Below are positions 328 through 7,737 of a stretch of DNA of 64,000 nt, piece after piece. The stretch lies in assembly GCA_027487835.1 (NCBI GenBank), contig JAIYCU010000001.1, positions 1-64,000 of the forward strand. The letters are read 5' to 3'. This stretch comes from Bacteroidota bacterium (lineage in GTDB: Bacteria > Bacteroidota > Bacteroidia > UKL13-3). Made by a program: the position numbers and the translations under genes. Numbering within the stretch: position 1 is the stretch's first letter; every line of letters starts with the position of its first letter. Below the pieces are notes generated by a model. The model was not told the origin of the DNA. It saw only the letters and a list, made by a program, of their open reading frames with translations, and searched no databases.

Positions 328-2931
328 ATGACCAAAGACCTGCTGAATAATTACAAATTTCGCGACCTTAAAATTTTTGGTTCAACCGAATGGCTTGCCA
401 ATAATGAGAAAAAGTATCGCTTGGTATTTGATGAGTCTGAGTGCTCATTTATTTATTGCGAATTATCCTTTTTTAATAAGCTTTTTGATGAAAACGACTG
501 GGACGTAAACATCAATTTAAAATGTATAAATAATGAGGATGGCACGATTGTTTGCAATTTAAGTGCAAGCAAAGCAATTACTAAAGATGAGAATATTGTT
601 TTTGTACGCGAAGGTTGGGGGGTTAAAAATCCAGGGAATTATTGGAAGAAGGGAGTCTATCGCTGGGAAGCTTGGATTGATGGGGTTTTTGTGGCAGAGC
701 GTCTGTTTTATATTATTGATCTTGGTGTTGTTTCGGATACGGTTAATCCCTTTTTTAATATCTCTAAAATAAAGCTATTTGAAGGTCCAGATACCTTGGT
801 AGAAAAAGCACAACGCAAATATTATTCTGTATTTAGTAGTGAAGAAACAAGATATGTTTGGTTGGAGTTAGAGATGGAAAATCTTATTTCGGAAGTGCCT
901 AGTTGGCCTTGCGAGTTGAATTTCCTTTTCCACACACATACTGGTCAGTTAAAAGGCTCAATTGATAAATTAACCTTCACAGATACCCGTGAACAAAAGT
1001 TTGAATTTACCATAGGTTGGGGAAATGAATTAAAAGGCACATGGGGCATAGATTCTTATACTATTTCTGTGGTTTTTATGGATCAAATAATTGCCAGCAT
1101 TCCCTTTGAGGTTGGGTTAGAATTTAAAGAACTAATGGCAATTGTTCCAAAAGTAAAACCTAGGGAGGTAATGCCAATTGCGGTTGTTGCCGAAGAAACG
1201 ATAGAAGCGGTGCTCAATGATTTGGATGCCTTGATTGGCCTTGCAGCCATTAAGAAAAAAGTAAAAGAGTACACTACTTACCTTAGCTTTTTGAAAATTA
1301 GAAAAGAAAAGGGTTTTGATGACAGTGAGAAAATTAACCTACATGCCGTATTTACTGGCAATCCGGGTACAGGTAAAACTACCGTAGCCAAAATGCTGGG
1401 TAAAATCTACCATCAAATGGGTTTGTTAAGCAAGGGACATGTGGTGGAGGTAGACCGTGGCGACTTGGTAGCCGAATACATTGGGCAAACAGCACCCAAA
1501 ACCAAAGAAGTAATTAAAAAAGCGAGGGGAGGGATTTTATTTATAGATGAAGCTTATGCCTTGGCGCGTAAAAACGACGACTCCAAAGATTTTGGAAAAG
1601 AGGCCATCGAGATTTTATTAAAAGAAATGAGTGATGGCGAAGGTGATTTGGCAGTGATAGTGGCGGGTTACCCAAGTGAAATGAATAGTTTCTTAGAATC
1701 TAATCCAGGCATGCGTTCGCGTTTTAGCATGTTTTATGAGTTTGCAGATTATTTGCCGCAAGAGCTTATGCAAATTGCGGAGTTTACCATGGAGAAACGA
1801 GGGGTTAAACTAAGTGAAAATGCAACTGATTATTTGTATAAAATGCTTGTTGATGCATACCGCGGCAGGGATAATATGTTTGGAAATGCACGTTATGTAA
1901 ATACGGTTATCGACGAAAGTAAGATGAACATGGGCCTAAGGATTATGACCGATAAAAATCCATCGGCCTTAAGTAAGGAGGACCTATCAACCATTCATAA
2001 AGAAGATATTCAAAAGATTTTTGAAGGAAAAGATAAAGGCTATGCCGATATTCCAGTAGATGAAGATTTATTAAAACAAGCGTTGGCAACCTTGCACCAA
2101 ATGATAGGTTTGGAAGCGGTAAAAACAGAAATTGATGAATTGGTAAAATTGGTTCGTTTTTACAGAGAGATTGGAAAAGATGTTAGGCAAAGTTTTTCTT
2201 TACATGCTGTTTTTACTGGCAATCCAGGTACTGGTAAAACCACTGTAGCCCGCATACTGGCTCAAATTTATAAAGCCTTAGGGATTTTAGAGCGCGGGAA
2301 TTTAGTAGAATGCGATAGGCAAGGTTTGGTAGGCGCATATGTAGGTCAAACTGCCATAAAAACTGCCGAGGTATTAGACAAAGCGCAAGGTGGCGTTTTA
2401 TTTATAGACGAAGCCTATGCCTTAAGTGAAGGGGGTGAAAATGATTTTGGAAAAGAAGCCATTGAAACCATTTTAAAACGCATGGAAGACAAGCGTGGGT
2501 CTTTTGTAGTAATTGCAGCAGGCTATACAGATAATATGCGAAGGTTTTTAGAAAGTAACCCAGGTTTACACTCCCGTTTTGATAGGGAGTTGAAGTTTGA
2601 AGATTACGATGCCCAGCAATTGTATGAAATAACCTTAAAAATGTTGCATGCCAATGCCGTAACACCAGATGAAACTGCTGCTGCGCACCTTAATAATTAT
2701 ATGACCTTTTTGCACAAGACCCGAAATCAGTATTTTGGCAATGCAAGAAATGTAAGAAAAGTAGTAGAAGAAACCATTAGAAACCAACACTTGAGATTGG
2801 CAAAATTACCTACTGAATCGCGCACCATTGAAATGATAAATACGATTTTATGGGAGGATGTTGAAGAATTTAAAATTGAAGATAAATCAGGTAGTGGTCC
2901 AAGAAGCATTGGTTTTAAGCAGCCTTCTTAG
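328..2931 (+). CDS. Double AAA+ ATPase of the CbbX/SpoVK type with an unknown N-terminal region
   Basis: This 867-residue protein has two tandem AAA+ modules. Each carries Walker A GNPGTGKTT (about residues 344 and 630) and Walker B with the sensor segment GG(I/V)LFIDEAYAL (about 400 and 688). Both modules resemble the CbbX/SpoVK branch, whose members remodel protein complexes using ATP. The first 290 residues are rich in aromatic residues and look beta-rich; I do not recognise a domain there. It may be a substrate- or partner-binding region. No signal peptide is seen, so it is probably cytoplasmic. It stands alone; its stop overlaps the stop of the convergent polyketide synthase gene by 4 bp. 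The family is clear, the target is unknown. Confidence 0.88.
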   Translation: MTKDLLNNYKFRDLKIFGSTEWLANNEKKYRLVFDESECSFIYCELSFFNKLFDENDWDVNINLKCINNEDGTIVCNLSASKAITKDENIVFVREGWGVKNPGNYWKKGVYRWEAWIDGVFVAERLFYIIDLGVVSDTVNPFFNISKIKLFEGPDTLVEKAQRKYYSVFSSEETRYVWLELEMENLISEVPSWPCELNFLFHTHTGQLKGSIDKLTFTDTREQKFEFTIGWGNELKGTWGIDSYTISVVFMDQIIASIPFEVGLEFKELMAIVPKVKPREVMPIAVVAEETIEAVLNDLDALIGLAAIKKKVKEYTTYLSFLKIRKEKGFDDSEKINLHAVFTGNPGTGKTTVAKMLGKIYHQMGLLSKGHVVEVDRGDLVAEYIGQTAPKTKEVIKKARGGILFIDEAYALARKNDDSKDFGKEAIEILLKEMSDGEGDLAVIVAGYPSEMNSFLESNPGMRSRFSMFYEFADYLPQELMQIAEFTMEKRGVKLSENATDYLYKMLVDAYRGRDNMFGNARYVNTVIDESKMNMGLRIMTDKNPSALSKEDLSTIHKEDIQKIFEGKDKGYADIPVDEDLLKQALATLHQMIGLEAVKTEIDELVKLVRFYREIGKDVRQSFSLHAVFTGNPGTGKTTVARILAQIYKALGILERGNLVECDRQGLVGAYVGQTAIKTAEVLDKAQGGVLFIDEAYALSEGGENDFGKEAIETILKRMEDKRGSFVVIAAGYTDNMRRFLESNPGLHSRFDRELKFEDYDAQQLYEITLKMLHANAVTPDETAAAHLNNYMTFLHKTRNQYFGNARNVRKVVEETIRNQHLRLAKLPTESRTIEMINTILWEDVEEFKIEDKSGSGPRSIGFKQPS

Positions 2932-4007
2932 GCATTGAAAATGCAAGTTTCTACAGTTAAGCCAGGGCCAAATCCTGCGGCAAAAACACTTTGGGTTTCC
3001 TTGTAGTCAGGTTGATTAATAATTTTATTTAAAACGTGCAAAATGGTGGTGCTACTTAAATTGCCTACTTCTTTTAAAACTTCATAAGAATGTTTCAAAG
3101 GGTTTTCGGTTTGAACCGAATTAGCTTTAAGTACCGTTTGAATGCCATCAACAATTTTTCTGCCACCAGGGTGAATGGCCCAATGCGTTATATTTTGAAA
3201 ATTAAAGCCATGTTGTTGCAAGGCATCAATCATTATACTACCTAAACCCTCTTCTATTAATTGCGGGATATAGGCGCTTAGGGTCATTAAAAATCCATCT
3301 TCATTAATATGCCATGCCATATCTGATTTGCCCTTATAAATTACCTTTGAATAGAAATTGCTAATTTTAAGAAAGCTATTTTCAGGTTGTTTAGTGCTTA
3401 TAATGCAAGCAGCAGCGCCATCGCCAAAGAGTAAATTTGCTGCCAATACATCTGTGGTAATTTGCTGGTTAAAATGCAAGGTGCAAAGTTCTACAGAAAC
3501 TACTAAAACCCGCGCATTGGGCCTTGAATTACAGATAGCATCGGCAATTTTAAAGGCATGAAAAAGGGCATAACAGCCCATAAAATTAACTGAAGTTCTA
3601 GGTGTTTCTGCTGGCAAGCCTAATGTTTGTAGAAGTATTAAATCTAAACCTGGAGCAGCCATTCCTGTGCAAGAAACCGTAATTAAGTGCGTAATTTCTT
3701 GGCCTTTCATGGATGCTTCACAAGCCTTTTGAGCGAGGGGAGGAGCATGTTCAAAATAGCTTGACATTCTTTTTGAAATTGGCACTTCTTGTCCTGTCTT
3801 AAAAAAACGCTCCGATTCATCTAGGTTCAACCCGAAATCTTTGAGTACACTGTATCTATTTTCAATGCCACTTCTGCCGTACATTAAGCTTAGTTTTTGT
3901 GCTTCTTTTGGTTCAAACCGATAACAACTAAGCATATAAGCTAGCAATTCTGCTTGCGAATATTTTTGGGATGGAAAAGCAAGGCCAATATTAGAAAGGT
4001 AACTCAT
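2928..4007 (-). CDS. Type III polyketide synthase (chalcone/stilbene synthase family)
   Basis: This 359-residue protein has the full Cys-His-Asn triad of the thiolase-fold type III polyketide synthases: Cys113 in VSCTGMAAPGLD, His279 in AIHPGGRK and Asn316 in KEVGNLSS, plus the GFGPG loop near 345-349. Such enzymes extend an acyl-CoA starter with malonyl-CoA to make pyrones, resorcinols or phloroglucinols. Its start overlaps the upstream UbiA-type gene by 17 bp, so the two are probably co-translated and may form a prenylated or membrane-anchored polyketide. No methyltransferase or oxidoreductase partner is adjacent. Starter and product cannot be read from the sequence. Two copies of the GGTT..AACC palindrome and one close relative of it lie inside the gene. 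Confidence 0.92.
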   Translation of the reverse strand: MSYLSNIGLAFPSQKYSQAELLAYMLSCYRFEPKEAQKLSLMYGRSGIENRYSVLKDFGLNLDESERFFKTGQEVPISKRMSSYFEHAPPLAQKACEASMKGQEITHLITVSCTGMAAPGLDLILLQTLGLPAETPRTSVNFMGCYALFHAFKIADAICNSRPNARVLVVSVELCTLHFNQQITTDVLAANLLFGDGAAACIISTKQPENSFLKISNFYSKVIYKGKSDMAWHINEDGFLMTLSAYIPQLIEEGLGSIMIDALQQHGFNFQNITHWAIHPGGRKIVDGIQTVLKANSVQTENPLKHSYEVLKEVGNLSSTTILHVLNKIINQPDYKETQSVFAAGFGPGLTVETCIFNA

Positions 4008-4884
4008 GCGTGTGTTTGATAAAGTAAACCGAAAGAAAATACAACACCATTACAATTGAAGATGTTTTGTTTAGCATCATGGTATATCTAAAATTGGCTT
4101 GGGATGGGTCATCCCATACTTTAAAAGCCCACCAAGTGAAAAAGGATACAATAGGAAAATTAAATAATAGAAAAAGGTAGAATAAATGAGATTGTTGGAG
4201 GCTAAAATAATGGTATCCCAATAGGCCACCTGCTAGTCCAAAGGCTAGTCCGCAAAATTCAAAGGTTCCTCTAATACCTAATAACATGCTTAAGGTATGG
4301 TCTCCATTTTTTTTATCGGCTTTGTGCTGATAAATCTGTGTCATGGGATAAACACCGGCAATTAATACAGAGCTAATAATTGCGGGAAGTAAATAATTAG
4401 CTTGCAATAATGCATTGTCAAAAGAACTGATTTGCCCAAATAAGAATACCAAACTATAAACAAAAGCGCCTTGGAAAAACATAACGGTTAGAAAACTTAT
4501 CAGGGCATAACGCTTTAACCTAACGACTTTCCAACTATACAAAGTGGACGCCAATACATAAATGAATAGGAGGAAAACAGCCAGCTTGCCCAGGAAAAAG
4601 TAAACTAAACTTAAGCCTATTAAATTAAAGATAAAGGATAACCATAAAACTAATTTACCAGCTTTAGGAGGGTTTTTTAGTCCGCCAATGCTGCCTTCAT
4701 CTTGGTCCATATAACTATTGTATGCATTAGAGGCAGGATAAATAAATAAATGTAAGGCCACAAAAAGGACTGCCATTTTAATTGGGTCTGGTGTTTCGCA
4801 AAGGGCAAAGGCAAAAAAGAAAACCGGTGTTAAATAGAAGGAAAACGGGATACGAAGTAGGATAAGGGCCTGCGCCAGGTTCAT
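3991..4884 (-). CDS. UbiA-family prenyltransferase
   Basis: This 297-residue protein is almost entirely hydrophobic, with about eight or nine membrane segments. It carries the two Asp-rich motifs of the UbiA superfamily: NAYNSYMDQDEG (residues 53-64) and D190-x4-D195 in YQHKADKKNGDHT. The family moves isoprenoid chains from a diphosphate to an aromatic or other acceptor in the membrane. It is the first gene of a two-gene operon with the type III polyketide synthase, which suggests that the polyketide is the acceptor; this is inference. The first motif is less acidic than the usual NDxxDxxxD, so substrate use may differ from quinone enzymes. Confidence 0.85.
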   Translation of the reverse strand: MNLAQALILLRIPFSFYLTPVFFFAFALCETPDPIKMAVLFVALHLFIYPASNAYNSYMDQDEGSIGGLKNPPKAGKLVLWLSFIFNLIGLSLVYFFLGKLAVFLLFIYVLASTLYSWKVVRLKRYALISFLTVMFFQGAFVYSLVFLFGQISSFDNALLQANYLLPAIISSVLIAGVYPMTQIYQHKADKKNGDHTLSMLLGIRGTFEFCGLAFGLAGGLLGYHYFSLQQSHLFYLFLLFNFPIVSFFTWWAFKVWDDPSQANFRYTMMLNKTSSIVMVLYFLSVYFIKHTHELPF

Positions 4885-5001: not shown

Positions 5002-5718
5002 ATGGCACAAGAATCATTACCACATATTTTAGTAGTTGAAGATGATATTACACTTGCAACTTTATTAAAGGAAAATTTAAAACTAAATGCATATACAACC
5101 AGATTGTGCAAAGATGGAGAAGAGGCTTGGCAAGTTTATCAGAAGGAACGCTTTGATTTATGTTTATTAGATGTAAACATGCCTAAAAAGAATGGCTTTG
5201 AGTTGGCCAAGTTAATTAGGGAGCAAGATGCCTTTACCCCCTTGGTTTTTTTAACCGCCAATAGCAGCGAAGAAGATAAACTTAAAGGCTTTGGTTTAGG
5301 CGCAGACGAGTATATTACCAAGCCATTTAGCACCCAAGAATTATTGGCAAGGTTAAGAGCAATTCTTAAACGGTCTTCAAGTGCAAAACCAGAAATAGTG
5401 GTTAAAGAAGAAGTTTATGAATTGGCCGGAATGAAAATTGATATTCCCAATCATTTGGTAATGTATAGTCAGGGTGGAGAGAAACGAGTGAGTGGAACAG
5501 AAGCAGAATTATTAAAGTTGTTTGTTAAGAACAAAAATGTTTTACTTACCCGTAATAGTTTATTGCTAAGCGTGTGGGGAAGAGATGATTTTTATACAGC
5601 CAGAAACTTAGATGTATATATTAATAAATTGAGAAAGCTACTCAAAGATGAGCCCAATGTAGAGATAATAAATGTGCATGGATCTGGATTTAAGTTGATA
5701 GAAAATACTGCCAATTAA
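5002..5718 (+). CDS. OmpR/PhoB-type two-component response regulator
   Basis: This 238-residue protein has an N-terminal receiver domain (about 8-122) with acidic Asp14/Asp15, phospho-acceptor Asp57 (LLDVNMP) and Lys107 (ITKPF). A C-terminal winged-helix DNA-binding domain (about 140-232) follows, with the usual ending HGSGFKL. It is expected to bind promoter DNA when phosphorylated. The TPR histidine kinase begins directly after its stop codon (TAA then GTG), so the two are co-translated and almost certainly cognate partners. Its target genes are unknown. Confidence 0.93.
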   Translation: MAQESLPHILVVEDDITLATLLKENLKLNAYTTRLCKDGEEAWQVYQKERFDLCLLDVNMPKKNGFELAKLIREQDAFTPLVFLTANSSEEDKLKGFGLGADEYITKPFSTQELLARLRAILKRSSSAKPEIVVKEEVYELAGMKIDIPNHLVMYSQGGEKRVSGTEAELLKLFVKNKNVLLTRNSLLLSVWGRDDFYTARNLDVYINKLRKLLKDEPNVEIINVHGSGFKLIENTAN

Positions 5719-7737
5719 GTGCAGCGTATTCATACATATTTGTTGCGATTGTGTTTAAGCTTTGTTGCCCTTTTTTGCATGCACCACGCATATGGAATTC
5801 AACAAGATTCTATTTCACTTAAGTTGCAACAGGCAAGCGCCTTGGTTTATTCAAATCCCAATTTGGCAGAGCTTCAGTTAAGGGAGGTACTGCAGTATAG
5901 CGAAGAAAATAAAGAGTATATTACTTGGTGTGAGGCCGCAAAACAACTTGCTATTTTACAAATCAATGCAGGAAAGTTTAATCCCGCTGCTGCCGAGTTG
6001 CAAAAGGCAATACAGATTTCGGAGCAATGGAATTTATTGCTGTATAATGCACATTTTAAATACCTGTTAGGAAACACTTATCATGCGCAAGGCAAGCTTT
6101 CTTTAGCGGTAGAAAACTACTTAACAGCCCTTAGGTATTTTGAATCGGCTAAGGTAGAAACTGGCCTGCTAAATACTTACACCTCTTTGGCAGATGTATA
6201 CAGCCGACAAAATAATTTTAGCAGAGCTATTGAGTATAATTTAAAAGCCATAAAACTTTTTGAACAAAGAAAAGATAGATTTAGGTTGTTGAGTACGTAT
6301 GAGCAAGTAGGATTATGGTATGCAAGGCAAGGGCAAGTTAAAAAAGCAGAAGAATCGTATAAGAAGGCGCTTAAACTTTACCAAGAGTTAGGGAACAAAG
6401 CTGGCATAGCAGCCACTTATATCAATATGGGAGATTTGAGTTTCTCACTAAATGATTTCTCTTTGGCAATAAGCCAGTATTCAACTGCAAATACAGCTGT
6501 AAATGATTTAAAAATTATCCCTTTACAAATTAGAAGTTTATTGGGTTTGGCAAAATCACATGCCATGCTTAAGGATTATGAATTAGCAGCCATCGAATAT
6601 CGAAAAGCTACAAATTTAGCCAAGGAAACTGGGATGAAAATAGAGCTTGAAGAAGCTTATGAAGGGCTTGCAGATTTGTATCGGTCCTTAAATGATAGAC
6701 AAACTTCTAAAGCATATCAAAGTTTAAGTAACGAAATAAAAGATTCTTTATTTAATGACTCCATTCTTAGAAAAACTTCCGATTTGCAATTGCGTTATGA
6801 GGCAGAAAAGAAACAAGCCGAGATAGAGATTTTTAAGAAGGAAGATGAAATTAAGGCCATGCAATTGCGGCAAACCAATCAAGTTAAAGACTTTTTTATT
6901 GCCCTTTCTGTGCTTTTAGCCATACTCATATTTTTGTTTGTGTATTTCATTTCTGAGAACCGTAAAATCAACAAACAATTAAAACAAGGGCTAAATGAGC
7001 TTGAAGTTAAAAATCACGAGATATCTATTCAAAAAGAGCAATTAACCCAATTAAATCATGTTAAAGATCGCTTCTTTTCAATCATTTCACATGATTTAAG
7101 AAATAACCTTACCACCATGAAATTATATTTTGATTTGGTAAGTAATCCAGCCTATGATAATGCTTCCCAGAAAGATTTTGGTAAAGAGGTAGCCGCTTCA
7201 GTTCAGAACACAATTGATTTATTAGAGAACTTGCTCGTTTGGGCGAGTGGCCAAATTAAAGGGGTTCGGGTTGAACCTAAAAAAGTTAACTTATATGCAT
7301 TGGCCGAAGAAAATATTGGGATGCTAAAAAGCATGGCCATTCAGAAAAATATAACCTTGCATAACGAAACTGAATTAGATGCTTATCTCTTTGCAGATGC
7401 TAATATGGTTAATCTTATCCTTCGAAATTTGCTTTCAAACGCACTTAAATTTACAAAGGAAGGTGGAGAGGTAAGTATTTTATCTGAAGAATTTGATGCA
7501 TACCATCAAATTACCGTAATTGATAATGGGGTAGGTATTGATTTACAAAAGTTAGAAACTTTGTTTACTGCTCATATGAATGTGAGTACACAAGGAACGG
7601 CCAATGAAAAGGGAACAGGCCTAGGCTTGATGTTATGTAAAGAATTTACAGAAAAGAATGGAGGTAAAATTTGGGTGGAAAGCGAAGCTGGAAAAGGTTC
7701 TAGTTTTATGTTAACCTTTCCCAAATTTCTAGGATAA
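5719..7737 (+). CDS. TPR-containing sensor histidine kinase
   Basis: This 672-residue kinase has a signal peptide, TPR repeats over about residues 35-330 in the periplasm, a short coiled coil, one membrane segment (about 390-410), HisKA with phospho-accepting His458 (SIISHDLRNN), and a HATPase_c domain ending near 668 with N, G1 (DNGVGI) and G2 (GTGLGL) boxes. The start is a GTG abutting the regulator stop; the signal peptide begins here, which supports it. The TPR sensor suggests response to a protein or envelope signal rather than a small ligand; this is inference. The partner is the preceding OmpR-type regulator. Confidence 0.92.
   Translation: MQRIHTYLLRLCLSFVALFCMHHAYGIQQDSISLKLQQASALVYSNPNLAELQLREVLQYSEENKEYITWCEAAKQLAILQINAGKFNPAAAELQKAIQISEQWNLLLYNAHFKYLLGNTYHAQGKLSLAVENYLTALRYFESAKVETGLLNTYTSLADVYSRQNNFSRAIEYNLKAIKLFEQRKDRFRLLSTYEQVGLWYARQGQVKKAEESYKKALKLYQELGNKAGIAATYINMGDLSFSLNDFSLAISQYSTANTAVNDLKIIPLQIRSLLGLAKSHAMLKDYELAAIEYRKATNLAKETGMKIELEEAYEGLADLYRSLNDRQTSKAYQSLSNEIKDSLFNDSILRKTSDLQLRYEAEKKQAEIEIFKKEDEIKAMQLRQTNQVKDFFIALSVLLAILIFLFVYFISENRKINKQLKQGLNELEVKNHEISIQKEQLTQLNHVKDRFFSIISHDLRNNLTTMKLYFDLVSNPAYDNASQKDFGKEVAASVQNTIDLLENLLVWASGQIKGVRVEPKKVNLYALAEENIGMLKSMAIQKNITLHNETELDAYLFADANMVNLILRNLLSNALKFTKEGGEVSILSEEFDAYHQITVIDNGVGIDLQKLETLFTAHMNVSTQGTANEKGTGLGLMLCKEFTEKNGGKIWVESEAGKGSSFMLTFPKFLG

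Follow-up and report, generated by a model that had tools for sequence, protein, structure and literature searches.

What does a bacterium produce with a type III polyketide synthase (PKS) whose gene overlaps that of a UbiA-like membrane protein, and do these two genes represent the entire pathway? The question is raised by a gene pair of a Bacteroidota bacterium (assembly GCA_027487835.1, lineage UKL13-3) which is situated within the first 64,000 nucleotides of contig JAIYCU010000001.1, in the following referred to as the window. A sequence-only reading had described the pair as a minimal operon whose UbiA-like enzyme may prenylate the aromatic product of the PKS. Judged by gene content, the pair makes up one half of a set of four enzymes, whose methyltransferase and FAD-dependent oxidoreductase (FAD enzyme) are merely unlinked in this genome. 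We consider it probable that the four enzymes form a pathway in which UbiA prenylates a phenolic lipid made by the PKS, and in which hydroxylation and methylation lead to a quinone-like lipid or pigment.

A biosynthetic set apparently split across the genome

Both open reading frames (ORFs) are present on the minus strand and share the 17-bp overlap proposed by the sequence-only reading (Table 1); ten more loci of the genus show the identical overlap. As had also been stated, neither a methyltransferase nor an oxidase gene is found beside the pair, whose neighbours encode an AAA protein and a response regulator/histidine kinase. The designation "minimal", however, has to be given up since another contig of this genome, C20, harbours genes for both a methyltransferase and an FAD oxidoreductase. 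In the sister-genus loci L058-L061 and L063-L065 the UbiA-PKS pair is directly followed by genes of a class I methyltransferase and an FAD oxidoreductase. Four of these loci continue into genes for a short-chain dehydrogenase/reductase (SDR) and a flavin reductase-like protein, and three of the four encode a photolyase-related protein in addition. In the genome under study (G000), contig C20 carries the methyltransferase, FAD enzyme, SDR, flavin reductase-like and photolyase-related genes in the same order as the sister loci, the Pfam names of the latter three having been taken from the C20 copies. The C20 copies of the methyltransferase and of the FAD enzyme share 55% and 53% sequence identity, respectively, with the sister copies. 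Since the second half is thus present on C20, the set appears to be split in this genome rather than reduced. In other relatives (e.g. L054-L057) both extra genes lie away from the UbiA-PKS pair as well as from each other, and contiguous UbiA-PKS-methyltransferase-FAD operons also occur in named genera, e.g. Mucilaginibacter, Lacihabitans and Flammeovirga.

Co-occurrence within the order and the phylum

The order sample comprises 62 genomes (64 minus two, among them G054, whose UbiA gene lies near a contig end). With the PKS called at E below 1e-75, which excludes three distant PKSs (best E 9e-34 to 8e-31), it is present in 30 genomes, 29 of which also encode the methyltransferase and the FAD enzyme; the sole PKS genome missing both is 81% complete. 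Among the 32 order genomes without this PKS the methyltransferase is found in none and the FAD enzyme in a single, 65%-complete genome, leaving 31 with neither. Fisher tests which ignore kinship yield p values of 7e-17 for PKS and methyltransferase and of 3e-15 for PKS and FAD enzyme. Hence, the three gene types of an srs-type pathway (see below) are all present in the genome and are inherited together. One genome of the order sample, G008, is exceptional in possessing UbiA without this PKS.

In a sample of 296 genomes of the phylum, UbiA is present in 47, all of which contain the PKS, while the PKS itself is found in 138, the methyltransferase in 105 and the FAD enzyme in 77 genomes, 14 of the latter matches being weak and partial. 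UbiA matches strongly in 21 of the 47 genomes: in six its gene and that of the PKS are neighbours with a common orientation, in ten the two are divergent within about 600 bp and in five they lie apart or on different contigs. The methyltransferase accompanies it in 20 and the FAD enzyme in all 21 of these genomes. The other 26 UbiA genomes are all members of a single family, in which the UbiA match is weaker. All seven sequences of this family that were read carry NSxxDxDEGPIGGLK, and the methyltransferase is present in 25 of the 26 genomes.

Gene arrangement in named genomes

At least 558 stretches of named genomes, including those of Hymenobacter, Pontibacter, Rufibacter, Emticicia, Flammeovirga, Lacihabitans, Fulvivirga, Mucilaginibacter and others, encode this UbiA. 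Of these, 80 were kept, several of them sharing genomes with the order sample, and a six-frame search located UbiA in all 80. The PKS is encoded within 500 bp of UbiA in 44 loci, while no PKS is found near UbiA in the remaining 36, 34 of which are flanked on both sides by 2.5 kb of contig or more. All 33 searchable genomes among these 34 encode the PKS elsewhere. In eight of these PKS loci which were fetched, the methyltransferase gene adjoins that of the PKS throughout and the FAD enzyme gene in six, one of which is cut by a contig end and lies beside a second UbiA copy. The PKS found in G359 (via L121, apparently the contaminated G001) adjoins a second UbiA copy. Separation of UbiA and PKS in relatives, if frequent, had been named by the sequence-only reading as an argument against a functional link; it is indeed common on the map but rare in gene content.

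In 18 loci of Hymenobacter, Pontibacter and Rufibacter (L162:7115-7909 and 17 others) UbiA is encoded near a different methyltransferase-like protein which scores just under the Pfam cut-off.

That the PKS, the methyltransferase and the FAD enzyme are each more widespread in the phylum than UbiA would fit two independent functions, a PKS-methyltransferase-FAD core making a methoxylated alkylquinone and a UbiA serving another lipid, with regulation alone being shared. The same holds for Hymenobacter, Pontibacter and Rufibacter, where this weakly matching methyltransferase is the neighbour of UbiA and the PKS is encoded at a distance. We regard such independence as quite unlikely: UbiA is always accompanied by the PKS, both in the phylum sample and in the 33 genomes which encode it apart, and overlapping and divergent UbiA-PKS pairings recur across several families.

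Fold and motifs of the UbiA-superfamily protein

The UbiA protein scores 61.9 bits against PF01040 (cut-off 34.2 bits). Its AlphaFold model (pLDDT 96.2) matches 4tq4, a UbiA structure with bound dimethylallyl diphosphate and Mg, with Z 23.2 and a root mean square deviation (rmsd) of 3.5 over 274 residues, and a UbiA structure with bound geranyl diphosphate and Mg with Z 22.7 and an rmsd of 3.5 over 272 residues; isoprenyl diphosphate synthases rank lower (Z 15.0 or less). When solved structures were searched with the sequence alone nothing was found at E up to 5, nor did the profile find anything at E 0.01. Weaker profile matches (E up to 10: 4od4, chlorophyll synthase) were used for the assignment of motif columns only. 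The model also matches the membrane phosphoribosyltransferase 8j8j (Z 17.4), an enzyme which presumably acts on a polyprenyl phosphate. This match would suit a UbiA which links the polyketide to an isoprenoid carrier so that it can be exported or joined to a surface polymer, yet higher Z values are obtained for UbiA prenyltransferase homologues (23.2 to 21.2). Moreover, the recurring neighbours that were scanned, most neighbours being outside the scan, include no carrier-linked ligase or transferase, and no test result favours carrier attachment over ring prenylation. We therefore consider carrier attachment very improbable.

Canonical aromatic prenyltransferases of the UbiA type possess the motifs NDxxDxxxD and DxxxD, neither of which is present in the window UbiA. 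Family-wide, they are replaced by NSxxDxD and QxxxD, and all 61 aligned sequences share N56, S57, D60, D62, Q186 and D190. The alignments used throughout this study comprise 22 of 35 UbiAs (A1; the five motif-less ones described below and that of G008 left out), 22 of 32 PKSs (A2), 9 of 10 (A3) and 8 of 9 sequences (A4), 60 of 74 plus the window sequence (A5) and 44 of 44 plus the window sequence (A6). The first motif is column-aligned with NDFYDRD of chlorophyll synthase (weak profile match, E 2) and the second with DIDFD of the Aeropyrum UbiA 4od4 (weak profile match, E 0.06). Compared to these, serine occupies the second position of the first motif, the third aspartate is gone and the first aspartate of the second motif is changed to glutamine. 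The unusual aspartate motifs to which the sequence-only reading had drawn attention are thus real and a property of the entire family. Identification as MenA or as the heme O synthase CtaB was rejected as the window UbiA reaches no NCBIfam cut-off. Separate MenA and CtaB proteins, each over its curated cut-off, are encoded on contigs C40 and C41 of this genome, and a third further UbiA-family protein is nearest to a prenyltransferase model, under its cut-off; on reading, none of these three contains an NSxxDxD-type motif. Since both canonical motifs are missing, we do not claim the window UbiA as a canonical aromatic prenyltransferase. It retains the UbiA fold in the model, however, and most likely works like an aromatic prenyltransferase.

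Indication of whether the altered motifs are functional comes from genomes in which the partner genes are missing. A full-length UbiA ORF is in place beside the response regulator gene in five genomes of a single genus (81-99% complete; L070, L073, L074, L075 and L076), where it has retained D190 but lost its first motif. The methyltransferase, the FAD enzyme and this PKS are all absent from these five genomes, one of which harbours a distant PKS only. In G008, which likewise lacks all three partners, a lysine occupies the otherwise invariant position of Q186. The five motif-less ORFs apparently encode pseudoenzymes kept in place. Damage to the motif in six genomes devoid of the PKS, the methyltransferase and the FAD enzyme argues that the noncanonical motif is the working active site for this pathway and decays in the pathway's absence. 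In the five motif-less genomes, genes for an SDR and a flavin reductase-like protein directly follow UbiA.

The departure of Ser57 and of the second-motif glutamine from canonical UbiA in all 61 sequences, as well as the retention of a full-length motif-less ORF in five genomes, as if a non-catalytic role existed, could also be taken to mean that the UbiA-fold protein belongs to this pathway without prenylating the ring. It might then transfer another group, cyclise a tail or bind and position the phenolic lipid in the membrane. We judge this to be unlikely, as N56, D60 and D190 are invariant and aligned with canonical positions, 262-274 residues of the fold match UbiA structures with bound substrate, and the five motif-less versions were found only in genomes without this PKS, the methyltransferase and the FAD enzyme.

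The type III polyketide synthase

Pfam scores of 87.1 bits (Chal_sti_synt_N) and 76.2 bits (Chal_sti_synt_C) exceed the cut-offs of 27 bits. In agreement with the complete Cys-His-Asn enzyme reported by the sequence-only reading, Cys145, His279 and Asn316 align with the triad regions of Pks18 and do not vary among the 45 members aligned. Among the solved folds closest to the AlphaFold model (pLDDT 92.7) are those of Pks18, Cannabis TKS, Ectocarpus PKS1 and the type III PKS of M. marinum, and a TM-score (query) of 0.90 to 4b0n and 7d41 identifies the type III PKS fold. FabH was rejected on curated cut-offs, as was the 3,5-dihydroxyphenylacetyl-CoA synthase DpgA (139.2 bits; cut-off of NCBIfam NF042429, 425).

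Thr114, Ala118 and Cys175 are found at the aligned positions of T144, A148 and C205 of Pks18, residues which we take to line or open its long-chain tunnel; the C205F mutant of Pks18 is among the solved structures matched by the model. In a PKS tree of 53 rows, all three residues are kept in the 44 PKSs of the UbiA-linked group, three of which originate from genomes without this UbiA; according to a warning of the tool, long branches meet at the split bounding this group. Nine more distant PKSs keep the threonine and differ at the alanine position, four of them at the cysteine too. A ketosynthase-like gene adjoins each of these four, and one of their loci, L200, contains FabA-like (by Pfam) and ACP-like (by reading) genes as well. 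There, an FAD enzyme-methyltransferase-PKS set without this UbiA is followed by the SDR, FabA-like, ketosynthase-like and ACP-like genes (L200:6003-12363), accompanied by a phosphopantetheinyl-transferase-like gene (by reading). This gene run possibly represents a dedicated starter supply. In three genomes of one family (L067-L069; L068 by Pfam) distant PKSs are followed by an ICMT-family methyltransferase.

Proposed pathway

We infer that the starter of the PKS is most likely a long acyl chain and its product a phenolic lipid of the alkylresorcinol or alkylpyrone type, onto whose ring the UbiA-fold enzyme would, within the membrane, transfer a prenyl group from a prenyl diphosphate. The FAD enzyme would then hydroxylate the ring and the methyltransferase O-methylate it, presumably in this order, giving a prenylated lipid or pigment which may be quinone-like. 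The prenylated aromatic product suggested by the sequence-only reading is thereby retained as the best-supported interpretation, UbiA being almost never found without the PKS, but the two-gene pathway is not, as the methyltransferase and the FAD enzyme belong to it.

Several observations weigh against this pathway. The best curated match of the FAD enzyme is a geranylgeranyl reductase family, albeit below cut-off (105.4 versus 158.8 bits), and reduction of the prenyl tail is thus possible. Three of the usual motif aspartates of UbiA are replaced and, hence, ordinary prenyl transfer is not assured. In addition to the 36 named loci with no PKS near UbiA, 25 of the 26 genomes of the weaker-UbiA family are without a match to this FAD enzyme, the match in the remaining one being weak, and a different FAD enzyme is encoded behind PKS and methyltransferase in the one genome of this family that was examined. 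G253 contains UbiA, PKS and FAD enzyme but no matched methyltransferase. Finally, the co-occurrence counts and Fisher tests are uncorrected for phylogeny.

The FAD enzyme is, however, present in 55 of the 296 phylum-sample genomes without this UbiA and, consequently, probably acts on the ring rather than on the prenyl tail; on the same grounds a geranylgeranyl-reductase function was ranked lower. YceI-like genes adjoin the operon in seven of up to 139 loci compared, some of which come from one and the same genome (one YceI-like gene was tested by Pfam). The YceI family has polyisoprenoid-binding members. Taken together, the threonine, alanine and cysteine residues of the PKS, the occurrence of the FAD enzyme without UbiA and the YceI-like neighbours favour an alkyl-phenol which is prenylated within the membrane and, by oxidation and methylation, turned into a quinone-like lipid.

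A more far-reaching conjecture, to which we assign a rather low probability, is that the product constitutes a new class of isoprenoid quinones in Bacteroidota, whose polyketide-derived, methoxylated ring would be prenylated by a UbiA with altered metal site, and which might serve as a membrane redox carrier, an antioxidant or a light-linked protectant. The operon of some sister genera extends into SDR, flavin reductase-like and photolyase-related genes. The corresponding genes on C20, together with the SDR and flavin reductase-like genes behind the motif-less UbiAs, hint at a light-linked regulon.

Features and neighbours of the locus

The features of the locus are compiled in Table 1. Neighbours similar to the response regulator and to the histidine kinase are found in 38 and 32, respectively, of the up to 139 loci compared; the two conserved neighbours are candidate regulators. 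Both are kept in many loci of the order, even beside a motif-less UbiA. A neighbour similar to the AAA+ protein is present in 20 loci of the same comparison. With GC contents of 0.377 and 0.365 versus 0.364 for the window the UbiA-PKS genes are not unusual and give no sign of a foreign origin. An ICMT-family gene directly behind that of the PKS, an arrangement which we take to be Bacillus bps-like, is absent at the window locus.

Table 1. Coordinates of the gene pair, its functional residues, its neighbours and the genes on contig C20. Positions refer to the window unless a locus is given.
Feature	Position	Strand	Basis
Type III PKS, 359 aa	2928..4007	minus	ORF; Pfam PF00195/PF02797
UbiA-superfamily membrane transferase, 297 aa, noncanonical metal motifs	3991..4884	minus	ORF; Pfam PF01040
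17-bp overlap of UbiA 3' end and PKS 5' end	3991..4007	minus	sequence
Codon of catalytic Cys145, PKS	3573..3575	minus	alignment to Pks18; codon checked
Codon of catalytic His279, PKS	3171..3173	minus	alignment to Pks18; codon checked
Codon of catalytic Asn316, PKS	3060..3062	minus	alignment to Pks18; codon checked
First UbiA motif, N56-S-Y-M-D60-Q-D62 (replaces NDxxDxxxD)	4699..4719	minus	codons checked
Second UbiA motif, Q186-H-K-A-D190 (replaces DxxxD)	4315..4329	minus	codons checked
OmpR-type response regulator, divergent from UbiA	5002-5718	plus	ORF, Pfam
TPR histidine kinase, divergent from UbiA	5719-7737	plus	ORF, Pfam
Double AAA+ protein, convergent with PKS	328-2931	plus	ORF, Pfam
SDR, flavin reductase-like and photolyase-related genes, after methyltransferase and FAD enzyme	L084:6547-9410 (G000 contig C20)		

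Comparison with known systems

A literature search, with most subscription journals outside it, retrieved no description of a Bacteroidota type III PKS with a UbiA, so that known enzyme families appear to be combined here in an undescribed set. Surveys of Flavobacteriaceae count type III PKS clusters, no product being given in the parts considered (PMC10734526, PMC7440613). The present analysis assigns a defined set of enzymes to one large group of type III PKSs in Bacteroidota. Cluster-based mining would miss part of this set because the genes are unlinked, and a sequence rule would call the motif of its UbiA inactive. As strain records of Pontibacter, Hymenobacter, Lacihabitans and Emticicia carry this UbiA, the product can be sought in laboratory strains. 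If it proved to be a quinone, a polyketide route to isoprenoid quinones would exist.

Prenylation, FAD-dependent hydroxylation and O-methylation of a membrane phenol are also the steps of the late ubiquinone pathway (UbiA-UbiG-UbiH), where the ring is derived from chorismate and UbiA has canonical motifs. The three reaction types would be the same in the proposed pathway, whereas the ring would be a polyketide. Canonical motifs are also found in the plant cannabinoid-type prenyltransferases, unlike in the Bacteroidota UbiA. Cannabinoid-type pathways, as far as covered by the part of the source considered, proceed from type III PKS chemistry to an aromatic prenyltransferase similar to UbiA-type enzymes (PMC8309193). 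At the level of enzyme families, the combination of type III PKS chemistry with a UbiA-like prenyltransferase is thus common to both.

The logic of PKS, methyltransferase and FAD hydroxylase is shared with the srs system, the comparison being one of gene type and not of SrsB or SrsC sequence. In the srs pathway (SrsA, SrsB, SrsC) a type III PKS, a methyltransferase and an FAD hydroxylase lead to methoxylated alkylquinones. This phenolic-lipid system presumably has no UbiA, in which the Bacteroidota set would differ from it. SrsA of Streptomyces griseus is a type III PKS described, in the part of the source considered, as making phenolic lipids (PMC6560455).

In the part of the loseolamycin study covered here, a bacterial artificial chromosome with losA switched on gave rise to alkylresorcinols, which were proposed to start from C16-C18 hydroxy fatty acids (PMC7587189). 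Within the covered part of its gene table no FAD oxidoreductase is listed, and prenylation is not mentioned in the text considered (PMC7587189). Unlike the set described here, the locus is actinobacterial and has an acyl-CoA dehydrogenase gene in between, the comparison being one of gene families (PMC7587189). Yet, in Micromonospora endolithica genes for a UbiA family prenyltransferase and a putative methyltransferase are situated three and two genes from losA, so that there, too, a type III PKS has UbiA and methyltransferase genes close by (PMC7587189).

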